Source: Rhodococcus qingshengii (lineage in GTDB: Bacteria; Actinomycetota; Actinomycetes; Mycobacteriales; Mycobacteriaceae). Taken from it: a stretch of DNA of 64,000 bases. The stretch lies in the NCBI RefSeq assembly GCF_021025955.1, contig NZ_JAJNCL010000002.1, forward strand, positions 237,626-301,625, given 5' to 3'. The notes beneath the pieces were generated by a model. The model did no database searches, had not been told where the DNA came from, and worked only from the letters and a program-made list of their open reading frames with translations. A program made the translations under genes and the position numbers. This document shows, one piece after another, positions 7,517-30,323 of this stretch (positions are counted from its first letter, which is position 1; the number at the start of each line of letters is the position of its first letter).

Positions 7517-8401
7517 CTATTCGTCAACACATTCACCGCCTGGTTGTCGGACCATCAGGAGTGGGCACGGCGTTTTGTGCAGCAAAGCTGTGCCGGTCGA
7601 GCCGATGTCCATCCCCGCGAAGCCGCCTCTTCCTCGGGTTCCGACCACAACGAGCTGGGCATCGGCCGCCAGAACCAGGAGATGACGAACAGGCCGGTCC
7701 CGAACCAGATTCCGCCGCACCCTGACCTCAGGGAATTGCTTCCACCACCTGGACACACTTTCCGCGAGCACCAACCGGCCTGCCGCCTCCACCGCGGCGC
7801 GGACCTCGGTCGCCGAATCGTCCTGCAGCGTAGACATATCCTGGTCGAAACAAGCGTGCAGCACGACCAGGGCCGCTCCACGAAGAGCACATTCTTCGAA
7901 GGCGAGACCGATGGCCGGATCACTGTTCATCGAGCCGTCGACGCCGACTACGACGGGTCCCGCGACGGGCTCGTCCCTTGACCAACCGTCTATCACTGCC
8001 ACTGGGCATTTCGCTCGACGTGCTACCGCCGCGCACACCGAACCGACAAACCCTCTGGAGTACTCATCGAGCCCGCGACGACCGAGCACGATCATCGATG
8101 CATCCGCGGATCGATCGATGAGCGCTCCCGGAGCATACTGGTGTGACAGTTCCCCCTGGACGTCGATCGATCCGGCAACTGTGTCAGCCCTGGCGATCCC
8201 AAGGGCCGTAGCAAGCACTCGATCTGCGCGGTCACATAACTCTCGGGCCAGGTACGGACCGTCTGCTGTGTATCGATAGGTCGTGCAGCAAACGAGCAGT
8301 AGAGGCAAGCCACGCAGGGTTGCCTCTCGCGTAGCCCACCCCAGAGCGTCCAGCGAGTGCTGAGACCCGTCTATTCCCACAATGATCGGAGATCTCACCA
8401 T
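7517..8401 (-). CDS. Universal stress protein, tandem UspA domains
   Basis: This 294-residue protein has two USP domains. Each begins with a beta-strand plus VGIDGS or VGVDGS. Each ends with the ATP-binding-type loop (VLGRRGLDEYSRGFVGSV; VVGTRGRGGF followed by GST). The ATG at 8401 is preferred because GGAGG lies six bases upstream; an extension to 8473 adds a segment unlike USPs. Tandem-domain USPs such as Rv2005c and Rv2623 belong to the DosR regulon in M. tuberculosis and bind ATP. It lies downstream of the KAS III-like pair on the same strand (83-bp gap) and may share its transcript. Confidence 0.93.
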   Translation of the reverse strand: MVRSPIIVGIDGSQHSLDALGWATREATLRGLPLLLVCCTTYRYTADGPYLARELCDRADRVLATALGIARADTVAGSIDVQGELSHQYAPGALIDRSADASMIVLGRRGLDEYSRGFVGSVCAAVARRAKCPVAVIDGWSRDEPVAGPVVVGVDGSMNSDPAIGLAFEECALRGAALVVLHACFDQDMSTLQDDSATEVRAAVEAAGRLVLAESVSRWWKQFPEVRVRRNLVRDRPVRHLLVLAADAQLVVVGTRGRGGFAGMDIGSTGTALLHKTPCPLLMVRQPGGECVDE

Positions 8402-8484
8402 CAGGACCTCCACAACAATTGATATCAGCGTCGAACACCGATACGTCGGTGACCATCGCTTCCTCACCCACACAATTGTTCAGC

Positions 8485-9369
8485 TCAATCTGACTCCGGG
8501 GGCACGTCGTACAGCGCGGCGCCAGCGGTCACGCCCGCCCCTACCGCGACCAGCATCGTTCGGGAGCCGGCAAATCGTCGCGGTTTCTCCCTCGCCAAAC
8601 CTGCGATCAGCGCAGCGGTGTGGATGTACTCGTCATCCGCCACGATGACCCGTGAGCTCGGTCTCCCCAGCAGTGTCGCGAGCGCTGAACGGAATGCCGG
8701 GCGAGCCGGAGCAGCCACTACGAAATCGACGTCGGCCAGAGCGATTTTCGCCTGCCGGAGACATGCGGTGACTGCTTCGTGACCGGCGGCGGCGTAGACG
8801 TCATCGAGCGAGTCGGTCTCCCGGAAACGCAGGATGTTTCGATTGTCTGCCTGACCGACAGTTGCCCGGAAGGAATCGCCGCTATCGAGATCATTGACCC
8901 AATGCACCGGGCCGAGCCCATACCGATCCTCGGTCCAGCGGCACAACGCCGCTCCGCCTGCTGCAGAAAACGGAAAGCTCTCGCTGAGCCTGTGCCCCGG
9001 GTCTGCATCGCTGGCAACGACGAGAGCCAGGTCGATCACACCAGAGCGAAGGAATCCATCGACGATCTGCAGCGCGGTCAGAACGCCACAGGTGCCATTC
9101 GCGATATCGAAGGAGAAGGTCCCGTGTTCGCCGGTATGAGGGTCTTCCGGATGAGCACCGATGTCGTCCTGGATCAGCGCGGCCAGGGCCGGCTCACCAA
9201 GGTTTCGGTCGCGGTACAACCCTGCGTTAACGAGCAGATCCAAATCGTCCGGGCTGCGACCGGCCTTTCCGAGGCACGACTGAGCCGCCACTACCGCAAG
9301 GTGCAGTGCGCTGTGCCGCCTCAGCCATCCAGCCCGAGTGACGTTCACCTGCTCAATGATCGTTCCCAT
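8485..9369 (-). CDS. KAS III-fold protein lacking the catalytic triad (probable inactive partner)
   Basis: This 294-residue protein belongs to the beta-ketoacyl-ACP synthase III-like thiolase superfamily. At the nucleophile position it reads FDIANGTCGVLTAL. Compared with the usual FDxxxACxGxxxAL, the active-site Cys position is Thr and the only Cys is one residue late. The His motif is replaced by VAAPARPAF, and the Asn of the final motif (usually GNT) is replaced in DDEYIHTAAL. The protein is therefore probably non-catalytic. Its start overlaps the end of the catalytically complete upstream KAS III (9353-10456) by 17 bp. This suggests a heterodimer comparable in logic to PqsB/PqsC. The substrate is unknown. 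Confidence 0.8.
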   Translation of the reverse strand: MGTIIEQVNVTRAGWLRRHSALHLAVVAAQSCLGKAGRSPDDLDLLVNAGLYRDRNLGEPALAALIQDDIGAHPEDPHTGEHGTFSFDIANGTCGVLTALQIVDGFLRSGVIDLALVVASDADPGHRLSESFPFSAAGGAALCRWTEDRYGLGPVHWVNDLDSGDSFRATVGQADNRNILRFRETDSLDDVYAAAGHEAVTACLRQAKIALADVDFVVAAPARPAFRSALATLLGRPSSRVIVADDEYIHTAALIAGLAREKPRRFAGSRTMLVAVGAGVTAGAALYDVPPESD

Positions 9370-10456
9370 AGCACGCCACCAGTTCTTCGTCGATTTCCAC
9401 CAGCACTACCCCGATCTCCAGCCCGGAAGCCAAGGAGATCAATGCCACTGTCTCTCCCGGTTTGATCCGGCCGGCTTCGAGTTCTTCGACCAACGCCACG
9501 GTGTGGGTTGTCGAGGCCGTGTTCCCGTATCGATCGACGGTGATGACCGCGTCATGGCGCGGACTGTCGCCGAACGACAGCACCATCTCAGCCATGCCCT
9601 TCTTGATTGCCCGCGCCGAAGTTTGATGGGTGATCACATGGTCGATGTCATGGATCGACAGTCCGAGAGTGTCGAGTACCTCGTGCAGGAGTAACGGGGT
9701 ATCGGCGATGGCGGCCTTCTGAATGGCTCGCGAATTGGTGAACATGCGAGCACCCGGTTCGCTGCCCTTCGGGTAAGCGAGACACAACCGGCTGTAGTCC
9801 GCGACCGTTGTAAACCCGGCGACGCGGATCCCGGCTGCACCGACGGGCGCCCGTTCGAGTACAAGTGCGGCGCCGGCATCGCCCAAGGTCAAGGAAGCCA
9901 ATTCTCTGCTCAATATGTTGTGAATATGCTTGGCAGCATTGTGACCGAGCTGGGAAATATACTCACCGCTGACAATCAGCGCCCGCTCGATCAAGCCCAG
10001 GCGGATCCAATTGTTGGCCACCATCACCCCAGTGAGCATCCCAGCGCAAGCATTCGAAAGATCGAAGCTCATAGCCCGGTCTGCACCGAGGGTGCGCGCG
10101 ACGGCACTACTCATCGTCGGTTCGAGCCATTGAGTCATGCCGCCCCGAAACTTGGTGATACTGCAGCTGATCACCACATCTATCGACTTGGCGGCACAAC
10201 TCGACCGACGCAAGGCATCCCGCGCGGCTGCTGTTGCGAGAGTGTAGGAATCCTCATCGCCCACGCTGACCCGACGCTCGTGGATCCCAGTCAGTCGTTC
10301 GAGGTCGATACCAGTGTCGTGGCGTGTTGTCGCCATCAAGTCCTCAGTCGTGAGTCTTGTGACGGGAAGATGCCGACCTGCCCCCGCCACCCGCGTTCGA
10401 TACGGCACTCGTCTGTCATTACTTTCCGAATCCGTCAACAGCCAGTGTTTGACCAT
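9353..10456 (-). CDS. Beta-ketoacyl-ACP synthase III-like condensing enzyme
   Basis: This 367-residue thiolase-fold enzyme has a complete FabH-type triad: Cys in FDLSNACAGMLTG, His in VITHQTSARAI and Asn in DRYGNTAST. It should catalyse a decarboxylative Claisen condensation or a related acyl transfer. It is more divergent than housekeeping FabH and does not sit with other fatty acid synthesis genes. A second KAS III-like protein without these residues is encoded downstream with a 17-bp overlap, so the pair may act together. Upstream on the same strand are a Met-rich microprotein and a SHOCT membrane protein. The product is not predictable; the setting suggests a role under oxygen limitation. 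Confidence 0.85.
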   Translation of the reverse strand: MVKHWLLTDSESNDRRVPYRTRVAGAGRHLPVTRLTTEDLMATTRHDTGIDLERLTGIHERRVSVGDEDSYTLATAAARDALRRSSCAAKSIDVVISCSITKFRGGMTQWLEPTMSSAVARTLGADRAMSFDLSNACAGMLTGVMVANNWIRLGLIERALIVSGEYISQLGHNAAKHIHNILSRELASLTLGDAGAALVLERAPVGAAGIRVAGFTTVADYSRLCLAYPKGSEPGARMFTNSRAIQKAAIADTPLLLHEVLDTLGLSIHDIDHVITHQTSARAIKKGMAEMVLSFGDSPRHDAVITVDRYGNTASTTHTVALVEELEAGRIKPGETVALISLASGLEIGVVLVEIDEELVACYGNDH

Positions 10457-10492: not shown

Positions 10493-10582
10493 CTAGTGCA
10501 TCGACATCATCTGCATGGGTGGAAGTATGCCCATGCCGTGGAGACACATCATGAACATGTGGAACATTTGCATGGCATCCAT
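10493..10582 (-). CDS. Methionine-rich microprotein (29 aa)
   Basis: This small ORF starts at ATG 10582 and ends at TAG 10493-10495. A very strong Shine-Dalgarno sequence (AAGGAGGTGACAGCC before the ATG, seven-base spacing) precedes it. The peptide begins MDAMQMFHMFMMCLHGMG and ends with a further Met-rich stretch, MQMMSMH. Eleven of 29 residues are Met, with three His and one Cys. The composition suggests soft-metal (Cu+) binding or a membrane-surface peptide, but no family was recognised. It lies 35 bp after the SHOCT gene and 36 bp before the KAS III gene on the same strand, so it is probably part of that operon. Alternative: a leader peptide controlling the downstream genes. Confidence 0.6.
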   Translation of the reverse strand: MDAMQMFHMFMMCLHGMGILPPMQMMSMH

Positions 10583-10617
10583 GGCTGTCACCTCCTTCTT
10601 TGCTTGTACCGAATCAC

Positions 10618-10911
10618 TCAGGGGGATGGGTCTGTTCGCAGAATCGTCAATCGGCTTCGATACTCGTTCTCATCAATTTCCCCACGCGCGAATCGCTCGG
10701 CAAGAAGTTGTTCTGCGCTGTGTTGCGGCGGCGGAAAACTTGTCAGCGGACTGCTACCGGACGGCCGAATCGCCGACTCCGGAGGTCCGTGTCCGGCATA
10801 GCGAATGAGCAGAAAGATGCCCAAGATCAGCAGGCCCCAGAACAGGGCCATACCTACGAACATCAAGAGGTAACCCCAACTCCAACCACTCGAATAATGG
10901 TCGTGCATCAC
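10618..10911 (-). CDS. SHOCT-domain small membrane protein
   Basis: This 97-residue protein has one hydrophobic segment (residues about 11-37, GYLLMFVGMALFWGLLILG) and a C-terminal SHOCT motif (AEQLLAERFARGEIDENEYRSRL). SHOCT domains are short helical modules at the ends of membrane proteins and probably mediate oligomerisation. The GTG at 10911 has GGAGG seven bases upstream; the ATG at 10908 is also possible. It is the first gene of a probable operon SHOCT-Met-rich microprotein-KAS III pair-USP. The N-terminus MMHDHYSSGWSW is rich in His and aromatic residues. The molecular role is unknown. Confidence 0.82.
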   Translation of the reverse strand: MMHDHYSSGWSWGYLLMFVGMALFWGLLILGIFLLIRYAGHGPPESAIRPSGSSPLTSFPPPQHSAEQLLAERFARGEIDENEYRSRLTILRTDPSP

Positions 10912-11056
10912 AGCGAGGCCTCCAACGTCTCCATGCGTGTCGTCCGCACTCCCTCCAGCGGAGAACTCACGCTTCCCCCCTCATGATGCGCCCTTTCACA
11001 ACGCACATACAGGGTCTTTCTGCTCGTATCCACAGGTGCGGCCAAGGCTCCGCATC

Positions 11057-15308: not shown

Positions 15309-15476
15309 CACTGATCGAAACAGTGTCCGCCTGCTGTGCAACTAGTGACATTCGGCCATGTATGCAATCGACACCGCGACGCAAAGCTGGACGAAGACCG
15401 GACATGCCTGCAGGTCCGCCCGCCCGCACGACGGTGCTCGTCTGGCACCCTGCCCCGCACAGAATCGAGAATCACC

Positions 15477-16334
15477 GTGAGCGCCACCATCGTCGTCGTC
15501 GTGGTTGCGACAATCCTGTTCCTGATTTTCGCAATGGCAATACGAATCGTCACACAGTACGAGCGCGGTGTTCATTTCCGGCTGGGGCGGATCATCGCGG
15601 TACGCAATCCCGGTCTGACACTCATCATTCCCGCGGTCGACCGGATGACCAAGGTCTCGATGCGTATCGTCACGATGCCGATCCAGTCGCAGGGAATCAT
15701 CACCCGCGACAACGTCAGCGTCGATATCGCGGCCGTCGCATATTTTCGCGTCATCGACGCGGAGAAATCCGTGGTGACCATCGAGAGCGTCAACTCTGCC
15801 ATCGACCAGATCGCGCAAACCACTCTCCGAAACGTGGTAGGTCAGCATTCCCTCGACGAGGTTCTGTCGGAAACGGCCGTGATCAACACCAGCATCCGTC
15901 AGATACTCGATACCACGACACTCGACTGGGGTGTCGAGGTAACGCTGGTAGAGCTCAAGGACATTCAGCTTCCGGAAAGCATGAAGCGAGCCATGGCGCG
16001 TGAAGCAGAGGCCGAACGAGAGAAGCGGGCAAAGATCATCGCAGCGGAAGGGGAAGCGCGAGCCGCCGCTGCGCTCGGCGAAGCGTCGGACACAATGATG
16101 GACCACCCGTTGGCGCTACAACTGCGCAACCTGCAGACCCTCGCAGAGCTCGGCGTCGAGAAAAACACCACCGTGGTCTTCCCCGCACCCCTGATGAGCG
16201 CAATCGGCGAACTCGGTTCGTTTCTTCATCGGGAAAACGCATCTGCGGAAGATCTCTCCAGTCATGGTGCGAAGGAAAACGCCATGAAAGAGACAACTTT
16301 CAACGCAAGCTCCCTCAGCGCCAGCCGACCGTGA
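15477..16334 (+). CDS. SPFH/band 7 (stomatin-like) membrane protein
   Basis: This 285-residue protein has one N-terminal transmembrane helix (ATIVVVVVATILFLIFAMAI) followed by a band 7 domain (QYERGVHFRLGR...NPGLTLIIPAVDRM). A charged helix, REAEAEREKRAKIIAAEGEA, forms the coiled-coil region typical of slipins. The GTG at 15477 is the natural start because the 47 residues encoded upstream do not resemble the family. Stomatin-like proteins form membrane microdomain scaffolds and modulate channels or proteases. No NfeD-type partner lies next to it; instead an Rv1733c-like membrane protein follows after 36 bp, probably in the same operon. Confidence 0.9.
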   Translation: MSATIVVVVVATILFLIFAMAIRIVTQYERGVHFRLGRIIAVRNPGLTLIIPAVDRMTKVSMRIVTMPIQSQGIITRDNVSVDIAAVAYFRVIDAEKSVVTIESVNSAIDQIAQTTLRNVVGQHSLDEVLSETAVINTSIRQILDTTTLDWGVEVTLVELKDIQLPESMKRAMAREAEAEREKRAKIIAAEGEARAAAALGEASDTMMDHPLALQLRNLQTLAELGVEKNTTVVFPAPLMSAIGELGSFLHRENASAEDLSSHGAKENAMKETTFNASSLSASRP

Positions 16335-16370
16335 TGCCTCCACTCCAGACCGGTCCAGGAGGCCGGCACC

Positions 16371-16955
16371 ATGCGTAAATATCTGATTCACACGACGGCA
16401 CGTCCCAGTCGCTGGTGGAACCAAGCTCCCTGGTCTTCGAACCGACTCATGCGTCCGTCGGATCGTATCTGGTCCTCCTTGGTCATCGCCGCAGTCGCAA
16501 TCGGGACTCTTGCGATACCTGTCGCAGCAGCAGTCGGCACGTCCGTCTACGCGTCCGGCCGAGCGCGAATCGAACAGCAACAGCACGTCGACAGCCAATG
16601 GAGTGGCACGGTGAGTCCCGACCCGGTTCCCGGGACAAAAGACCTGGGAGCCGCGCGCAAGGTCGTGGCATGGACCATGAACGGAACTGCACGCACCGAA
16701 CCATTGGTTGCTCACTTCAGCGCACGTCCCGGTGACACGATCGCCGTGTGGACGAATGCAACAGGCGATCAGGTTCCGCCTCCCCCTCAGACGTCGAGCA
16801 CGGCTGTCGACGGAATCGCTGCTGCGATCACGTTGTATTGTGCGAGCGTTCTTGCCGTGCACGGAATGCTCACTGCCGCAAAAACACTGATCAGTTGGCG
16901 CAACGGTCGCGCCTGGGATGCAGAGTGGTCGGGGGCCTTCCCACCACACGCATGA
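16371..16955 (+). CDS. Rv1733c-like two-helix membrane protein
   Basis: This 194-residue protein has two predicted transmembrane helices (about 35-57 and 143-165) flanking an extracytoplasmic region of about 85 residues. The N-terminal WWNQAPWSSNRLMRPSDRIWS and the central VAWTMNGTARTEPL resemble M. tuberculosis Rv1733c, a DosR-regulon membrane protein and strong T-cell antigen of similar size. The function of the family is unknown. It probably shares a transcript with the SPFH gene. The truncated P-type ATPase on the other strand breaks off about 20 bp past its stop, so a rearrangement may have joined the two. Confidence 0.82.
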   Translation: MRKYLIHTTARPSRWWNQAPWSSNRLMRPSDRIWSSLVIAAVAIGTLAIPVAAAVGTSVYASGRARIEQQQHVDSQWSGTVSPDPVPGTKDLGAARKVVAWTMNGTARTEPLVAHFSARPGDTIAVWTNATGDQVPPPPQTSSTAVDGIAAAITLYCASVLAVHGMLTAAKTLISWRNGRAWDAEWSGAFPPHA

Positions 16956-16975
16956 AGTAACAAAAGTCCAAGTGG

Positions 16976-17506
16976 ATTCAGAGCGGATTCGTCGAAGACT
17001 GCCGGTTCACCGACAATCCATCCGTCCGTGGGTACGACGTCCCCGGAGCTGAGGAAGATTCGGTCGCCTGGCTCGATCTCGTCGACCGCAACCGTCCGAA
17101 GTTGGCCGCGCTCTTCGCGTTGCGCGATCCTCGGAACATGTTCACGAAGGGAACGAAGATCTCGCGCCGCTCGACGATTAGCCGCCGCATCGAGGGTTCG
17201 CCCGGTCGCCAGCATGACTGCAATCAACGCACCGGCCAGATACTCCCCTACCAAAATCGTTCCGAGCAGCGACAGAACTGCAATGACATCGACGCCCGCC
17301 CGTCCTCTGCGCAACCCGTCGACAACCCACCACCCTGCCGGCAGCAACGCCGCAATTGTCCCCAAGGCCCACATCCCGTCGGCAACGGCGCGCTGATCGA
17401 GCGACCAGGCGAGAACGCCACCGGCGAGCACAGACACAGTCGCGATCAGGAGAAGGGACTCGGCTTTCGTTGTCAAGCGCTGGAACAGGTCTCGGATCAG
17501 CGACAT
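16976..17506 (-). pseudogene. 3'-truncated heavy-metal P-type ATPase (N-terminal relic)
   Basis: About 177 codons remain of a P1B-type ATPase: N-terminal transmembrane helices, GVDVIAVLSLLGTILVGEYL, the actuator domain with EPGDRIFLSSGDVVPTDGW and then FDESAL. In intact proteins this continues as TGE(S/A)xPV, followed by the DKTGT kinase domain. Here the similarity stops after DESAL near 16976, and the frame runs into the antisense of the Rv1733c-like gene. The phosphorylation and nucleotide-binding domains are absent, so it cannot pump ions. The start and N-terminus look intact, suggesting a fairly recent deletion. Some short product might still be made. Confidence 0.85.
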
Positions 17507-20877: not shown

Positions 20878-23213
<2,336 letters not shown>

Positions 23214-23328
23214 GTGATCATCCGTCCTCACCTCACGCAGCACGCACTCAACGACTACCCATAGCCCGACGAACGAATCAGCGAACGCGGACGTCACTGC
23301 ACCTAAAGGGTGTTGCCCGACAAGTTCG

Positions 23329-30185: not shown

Positions 30186-30199
30186 AGGCCGAAAGACCC
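30186..30199. promoter_or_regulatory. Candidate DosR-type box in a divergent promoter region
   Basis: On the minus strand the site reads GGGTCTTTCGGCCT, close to the GGGACTTNNGGCCC/GTCCC form of the DosR box. It lies about 107 bp upstream of the 124-aa gene and 125 bp upstream of the flavodoxin-USP operon. A second partly palindromic stretch (GACCAGGAAGTCCTGACC) is at 30223-30240. Nothing else coding was seen in this 244-bp gap. Confidence 0.45.
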
Positions 30200-30323
30200 T
30201 TTTTCGTGCACCTCGCGGCCCTGACCAGGAAGTCCTGACCCCGGCACAATTCGAATCACGATCACCCGAGCACGGCGAGTGCATGTGAGCAATCACCGTG
30301 TTGATTCCCGAGCGGAGCACTGG

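Follow-up and report, generated by a model that had tools for sequence, protein, structure and literature searches.

The mycobacterial protein MymT is a tiny actinobacterial copper protein and is Cys-based, whereas the microprotein family described here is Met/His-based, with Cys optional. CusF is a periplasmic protein with a fold different from that of the microprotein; CusF and other Cu(I) sites share with it the gathering of Met, His and often an aromatic residue in one short segment (position 13 of the microprotein is W in 23/34 members), homology being compared through family libraries only. In the available text of one source, the CusF site is given as His/Met/Trp (PMC5008109). SilE/PcoE, a periplasmic silver/copper sponge, resembles the microprotein in carrying short His/Met motifs (HXXM, MXXH, HXXMM) on one helix face; according to the accessible parts of two reports, Ag+ is bound by SilE peptides that contain HXXM/MX2H, and the SilE protein itself becomes helical (PMC10080550, PMC5008109). 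Unlike SilE/PcoE, the microprotein has only 27 to 44 residues, one predicted helix instead of six and no signal peptide recognizable by eye, and its family was found here in Actinobacteria only; the two were set apart by means of family libraries, in which no model matched the microprotein.

The gene neighborhoods can be compared with the CopR regulon of Corynebacterium glutamicum, for which the text available to us lists copRS, cg3286, copO, cg3288 and tlpA and the CopR site TGAAGATTTnnTGAAGATTT (PMC3140484). CopRS, a multicopper oxidase and the CopR direct repeat of this regulon have counterparts at part of the loci compared, the repeat as CopR-like boxes with mismatches, and a hypothetical 9-kDa ORF between copR and cg3286 occupies the position that the SHOCT gene has in Rhodococcus (PMC3140484); our guess is that this ORF encodes a SHOCT protein. 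cg3288 was considered as a homolog of the microprotein and is not supported as one, as plasmid pLEW279b (reported to be 97% similar) has no Met-rich frame in the stretch behind the oxidase. Our results suggest that the microprotein is probably a tiny binder of a soft metal (copper), and we prefer to read it as a ligand of a soft metal because several relatives adjoin multicopper oxidase genes or lie near CopR-like boxes.

The microprotein gene and its family

The window, a stretch of 64,000 nucleotides from Rhodococcus qingshengii, contains an ORF read on the minus strand from 10582 to 10493 that encodes the peptide MDAMQMFHMFMMCLHGMGILPPMQMMSMH* (Table 1). The initial annotation had described a Met-rich ORF of 29 residues here and named no strand; the plus strand of the same interval holds a His-rich frame, and on the minus strand the description is confirmed, with 11 Met, three His and one Cys among the 29 residues. 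His and Cys, which had also been pointed out, are both present in the window peptide; Cys is not a feature of the family, as position 13 varies (W in 23, C in 7, F in 2 and H in 2 of 34 members). The Shine-Dalgarno sequence proved to be a near-perfect match as claimed, at a distance from the ATG of 5 nt (8 nt from the end of its GGAGG core) and not of seven bases. Likewise, the placement of the ORF between a SHOCT gene and a pair of KAS III genes was borne out.

Table 1. Coordinates of the features discussed, as positions in the window
Feature	Position	Strand	Basis or remark
Met-rich microprotein, 29 aa plus TAG stop	10493..10582	-	ORF, conservation, pN/pS, plasmid copies
Shine-Dalgarno sequence AAGGAGGTGA	10588..10597	-	near-perfect; ends 5 nt before ATG
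SHOCT-domain membrane protein, 96 aa, directly upstream	10618..10908	-	domain match, co-occurrence
Conserved box GCAGAAAGACCCTGTA	11008..11023	-	about 100 nt upstream of SHOCT start
KAS III-like protein, downstream neighbor	9353..10456	-	domain search
Second KAS III-like protein, overlaps first	8485..9369	-	Pfam scores just below curated cut-offs
Universal stress protein, two Usp stretches	7517..8473	-	domain search
DosR/DevR-type response regulator	22566..23297	-	best solved structure 3c3w, E 1.6e-98
DosS/DosT-type GAF histidine kinase	20878..22569	-	2vzw, E 3.4e-59

Conservation is stronger evidence for the microprotein than its composition (with 2% Met assumed, ten or more further Met among 28 residues have a binomial probability of 1e-10). 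Of 28 genomes of the genus searched with the peptide, 11 had a match with an E value of at most 10, and the source genome itself carries a second copy. A tblastn search of plasmids with the two 29-aa peptides gave no match although carriers of the gene are in that collection; this result is uninformative and probably reflects the low-complexity filter of BLAST. Profile A4 found relatives in 34 of the 401 genomes searched in the GTDB family, spread over 8 of 31 genera (E 0.05), and profile A3 in 32 of 401 genomes at E 0.1; profile A1, run with the loose limit of E 1, matched in 38 of 301 genomes, many of these matches being noise. Outside the GTDB family, 394 genomes of the class (A3) and 396 of the phylum (A4) yielded matches only at E 0.027 or weaker, those at class level did not resemble members, and we regard none in these samples as convincing. 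The relatives are 27 to 37 residues long, with one of 44. Their alignment (A4, 34 rows) includes the added member L046 and omits L093, whose start is unclear, L103, apparently frame-shifted, L105, which is weak, and L081, which contains an internal duplication; L170 to L172 were found afterwards and are not among the 34 rows. A Shine-Dalgarno match of 5 nt or more precedes the start, as picked by script, in 31 of 33 members, a count that omits L093, L103, L105 and L094 (the last with a wrong start) from 37 rows and in which the start of six more members was later shifted by hand.

Among ten members from the genus, pN/pS was 0.25 in the microprotein's own frame versus 0.78 to 2.59 in the other five, from pooled pairwise counts that are mutually dependent; judged by this ratio, the microprotein behaves as a sequence under purifying selection, and in its own frame only. 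Of the two plasmid copies closest to that of the window, the one in Rhodococcus sp. BH4 (L184) is 6 nt away from it; five of the changes, in four codons and in the stop, are silent and the sixth gives S27P, a change towards the family consensus, while another R. qingshengii copy (L143) differs at 7 nt, four of them silent (stop included) and two in codon 20 (L20V), besides S27P. All seven near DNA matches of the window among plasmid records were from Rhodococcus.

These observations, all of them on sequence, indicate that the ORF is a real, unannotated protein-coding gene, presumably translated. Two plasmid records that we checked list no gene between SHOCT and KAS III, in PLSDB gene tables that are incomplete. 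The initial annotation knew of no described family of this kind, and indeed Pfam and NCBIfam hold no model for it; NCBIfam and PDB profile searches of the members returned no match, one member matched an unrelated Pfam family at E 0.08, which was taken as noise, an Rfam scan of the window gave no match, and no publication on such a family turned up in the open-licence literature searched. By these searches the microprotein family is absent from the libraries covered and present in Rhodococcus and its relatives. Frame loss in relatives with the same synteny, which had been named as counterevidence, was partly encountered: in L173 the upstream box, SHOCT and KAS III are kept and a clean gap takes the place of the microprotein and its Shine-Dalgarno sequence, and the distant copy L103 looks frame-shifted, whereas the members compared are under purifying selection. 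The microprotein gene is therefore dispensable in at least one lineage.

Two variants of the peptide were seen. L081 (9908-10039) encodes a 44-aa microprotein in which the MMWLHGAG core is duplicated in tandem, and L106, L107, L170 and L171, all from one genus, encode N-terminally extended forms, e.g., MNMMGMMDQAH...

The SHOCT gene, its upstream box and the hypoxia setting

Within the genus, a SHOCT gene was found in 12/12 genomes with the microprotein and in 7/16 without it (Fisher p 0.003, with no more than 150 candidates scored in some genomes). On a wider scale we examined 40 loci, namely 36 fetched stretches, the window and three more, with L093, L103 and L105 weak or degenerate. SHOCT proteins of the same family occurred in 22 of 37 scanned stretches, and in 14 of the 37 the gene lay directly upstream of the microprotein on the same strand; these 14 loci differ in their further neighbors. 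There was no SHOCT match in the other 15 stretches, e.g., L086 to L091 (L075 ends near a contig end). The hydrophobic segment of the SHOCT protein has invariant Met16, Met20 and Trp24 in an alignment of 12 rows.

About 100 nt upstream from the SHOCT gene, the window-clade box, GCMGAAAGACCCTGTG, was present with at most 2 mismatches in 13 of the 14 loci in which SHOCT directly precedes the microprotein; in L092 it lies further upstream, with an oxidase next door, and in the fourteenth locus, L104, a CopR-like box stands in its place. The box is also found in L143, L173 and L184. Allowing as many as 3 mismatches, we counted 19 matches in the 37 loci versus 10 after shuffling and 16 for the reversed pattern; the evidence for the box is thus its fixed position and not how often it occurs. 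Within the window there were 3 matches versus 1.3 expected. As a genome-wide regulon box it was rejected, with two exact GMMGAAAGNCCCTG sites and 40 matches at up to 1 mismatch versus 29 for the backward pattern. Common palindromes upstream from SHOCT were sought, and any one of them occurred in at most 3 loci. Two similar sequences lie elsewhere: AGGGTCTTTCGGCCT at 30186-30200 of the window (minus strand) closely matches the reversed form of the box in front of SHOCT, and L099 and L172 carry AGGTCTTTCGCCCC about 100 nt upstream from the microprotein, with the core GAAAGACC (in reverse) common to it and the window-clade box.

Genes of the DosR and DosS/T types lie about 10 to 12 kb from the microprotein gene, and the window locus also contains Usp, nitroreductase and WS/DGAT genes. 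Such genes are typical members of the DosR regulon. The hypoxia operon presumed in the initial annotation is thus supported as a setting and not as regards control by DosR, as the window has no excess of the consensus: for the box TTSGGGACTWWAGTCCCSAA, the inner 14-mer, searched with 3 or fewer mismatches, gave 5 matches in the window versus 4.2 expected, none of them at the operon, and the DosR consensus was not retained as the regulatory site. The conserved box in front of SHOCT resembles a DosR site only loosely. At the start of the window, 186-1523 on the plus strand matches the large subunit of a nickel-dependent hydrogenase.

Copper-type neighbors and the conserved helix face

CopR-like boxes with 2 to 4 mismatches were found near 6 of the 40 loci (L082, L097, L103, L104, L106 and L107) and lie directly upstream from the microprotein in L097, L106 and L107; L170 to L172 and the window copy have no such box, and L083 and L109, both loci of the hypoxia type, each gave one four-mismatch match that we disregarded as spurious. 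Allowing up to 5 mismatches in 37 loci, we counted 38 matches to the CopR pattern, overlapping registers included, versus 3 in the control, which was one mononucleotide shuffle of each locus, and 0 for the reversed pattern. The boxes also accompany SHOCT genes alone: among 12 further SHOCT copies in the genus, at sites without the microprotein, 10 have a similar box (3 to 5 mismatches) 87 to 117 nt upstream, none of these 10 is followed by a Met-rich frame in the 330 nt read, and several are then followed, by eye, by an apparent oxidase start.

Multicopper oxidase genes lie within 1 kb of the microprotein in 5 of the 40 loci (L074, L082, L092, L094 and L097) and at 7 kb in L107, where an rtcB gene is also nearby. 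In 12 genomes, 5 oxidase-microprotein pairs were seen versus 0.016 expected by chance, 10 of these genomes having been picked after the neighborhoods had been viewed. Nearness to an oxidase or a CopR-like box is in this way a property of several diverged members; in 25 of the 40 loci we counted no CopR-like box and no match to a multicopper oxidase or a P-type ATPase, and the first 24 kb of the window contain no oxidase match and no CopR-like box. The paralog in the same genome (L074; G000:C22:217626-237625) lies about 100 nt behind a multicopper oxidase gene and about 22 kb from the window copy, in a locus that also contains SHOCT, a VIT1-family protein and a TPC/hemerythrin P-type ATPase.

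P-type ATPase matches were found near 11 of the 40 loci, the window included. Those of L074, L091 and L170 carry TPCP, the mark of the TPC kind, a hemerythrin domain being shown for L074, and those of L094, L097 and L100 carry CPD. TPC-type P-type ATPases are linked to Ni and Fe transport by the title of a work cited in PMC9388753; because of this link, and because the others carry CPD, P-type ATPases were not counted as copper genes. In the window itself, fragments of a P-type ATPase occupy 15342-17506 on the minus strand, about 5 kb from the SHOCT gene; the fragment 16901-17497 shares 47% identity with the L074 ATPase of the TPC/hemerythrin kind, and the gene is apparently broken, with Pfam matching part of a domain only.

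The pattern of conservation in the peptide itself is position specific. M12, G18 and M23 occur in all 34 aligned members, H8, M11, P21 and M26 in 33, M4 in 31 and H15 in 30; the mean Met content is 39%, and Lys and Arg are nearly absent (0.24 per member). On a helix, M4, H8, M11, M12 and H15 fall on one face of an amphipathic peptide, followed by G18 and PPMxM, and L14 and M17 (28/34 each) are both off this face; equally tight clustering is reached by 0.6% of all choices of five columns from columns 2 to 17. AlphaFold2 predicted for the 32-aa member L092 a helix over residues 3 to 17 with a block pLDDT of 81 to 82 and a loose tail at 56 to 63 (mean 74; pTM 0.34). The motif H..M is present in 33 of the 34 members, M..H in 31, and H...M and M...H in all. 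No export signal was recognized by eye in these proteins of 27 to 44 aa, in which the predicted helix starts at residue 3, and the microprotein would be located in the cytoplasm or at the membrane surface.

Proposed function and alternatives

We propose, with a probability of roughly 0.55, that the microprotein binds Cu(I) or another soft metal and acts together with the adjacent small SHOCT membrane protein. The metal would be held by M4, H8, M11/M12 and H15 of the single short amphipathic helix, and the Met of the PPMxM tail may add to the site.

The neighborhoods and the residue pattern also bear on other explanations. One is that the microprotein is a structural partner of SHOCT: its helix would pack against the membrane segment in which SHOCT has its Met residues, making it a small subunit or a regulator, and its own Met would serve for packing and not for metal. 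This would agree with the complete co-occurrence in the genus (12/12), with a directly upstream, same-strand SHOCT in 14/37 loci that otherwise differ in their neighbors and with the invariant M16, M20 and W24 of SHOCT (12 rows); 15/37 stretches, however, have no SHOCT match, and packing does not account for H8 and H15, which lie on the Met face and hardly vary. We consider it unlikely. Improbable, in our view, is a methionine-oxidation sink or a redox sensor working through formation and repair of Met sulfoxide: an average of 39% Met and the stress genes (Usp, DosRS) near the window clade are in keeping with it, but it explains neither the position-specific conservation of His, Gly and Pro nor the oxidase neighbors and CopR-like boxes of distant members.

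A regulatory leader had been among the suggestions of the initial annotation; such a leader, with its Met codons sensing starvation for Met or SAM and a hairpin downstream, is now disfavored to the point of being very improbable. Besides the Met codons themselves, it could draw on a hairpin after the stop that is more stable than shuffles in a few loci (z of -2.0 in L085 and -1.6 in L084), but z was above -1 in 9 of 13 loci and 0.15 for the window copy (mononucleotide shuffles), residues other than Met are conserved, and operon placement varies, the microprotein gene coming after the oxidase gene in some loci and before it in another. Equally little speaks for a membrane-active or toxin-like small peptide in the style of type I toxins; the very short, amphipathic peptide with its 0.24 Lys/Arg per member would suit such a role, whereas the window has no Rfam antisense RNA, and the conserved residues of metal-binding type and the pairing with SHOCT point elsewhere.

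Returning to a soft-metal ligand, SHOCT and the microprotein may be shared between a copper-defense module and the hypoxia locus. E. coli CueO has no electron acceptor without O2 and then cannot work, as stated in the portion of the source available (PMC10100754). If multicopper oxidases in general detoxify Cu(I) only with O2, an oxidase-free pair of SHOCT and sponge would hold Cu(I) at low O2, and the DosRS-linked copy, with no oxidase in the stretch examined, is accordingly proposed as the low-oxygen version. We tentatively extend this to an O2-independent Cu(I) sponge or relay, made up of the 29-aa microprotein and a SHOCT protein with its own Met-Met-Trp site, that split from a CopRS-oxidase module into the DosRS locus; we hold this extension to be possible and rather doubtful.

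If the proposal is true, a very small metal-binding family, unannotated in the two records checked, joins bacterial copper handling, and a role is suggested for the small SHOCT membrane proteins that actinobacterial copper operons encode. Copper and hypoxia would then also be connected, in a way open to testing, in a group that includes the mycobacteria. One locus, L104, combines a CopR-like box, SHOCT, the microprotein and DosRS-type genes and might represent a link between both settings.
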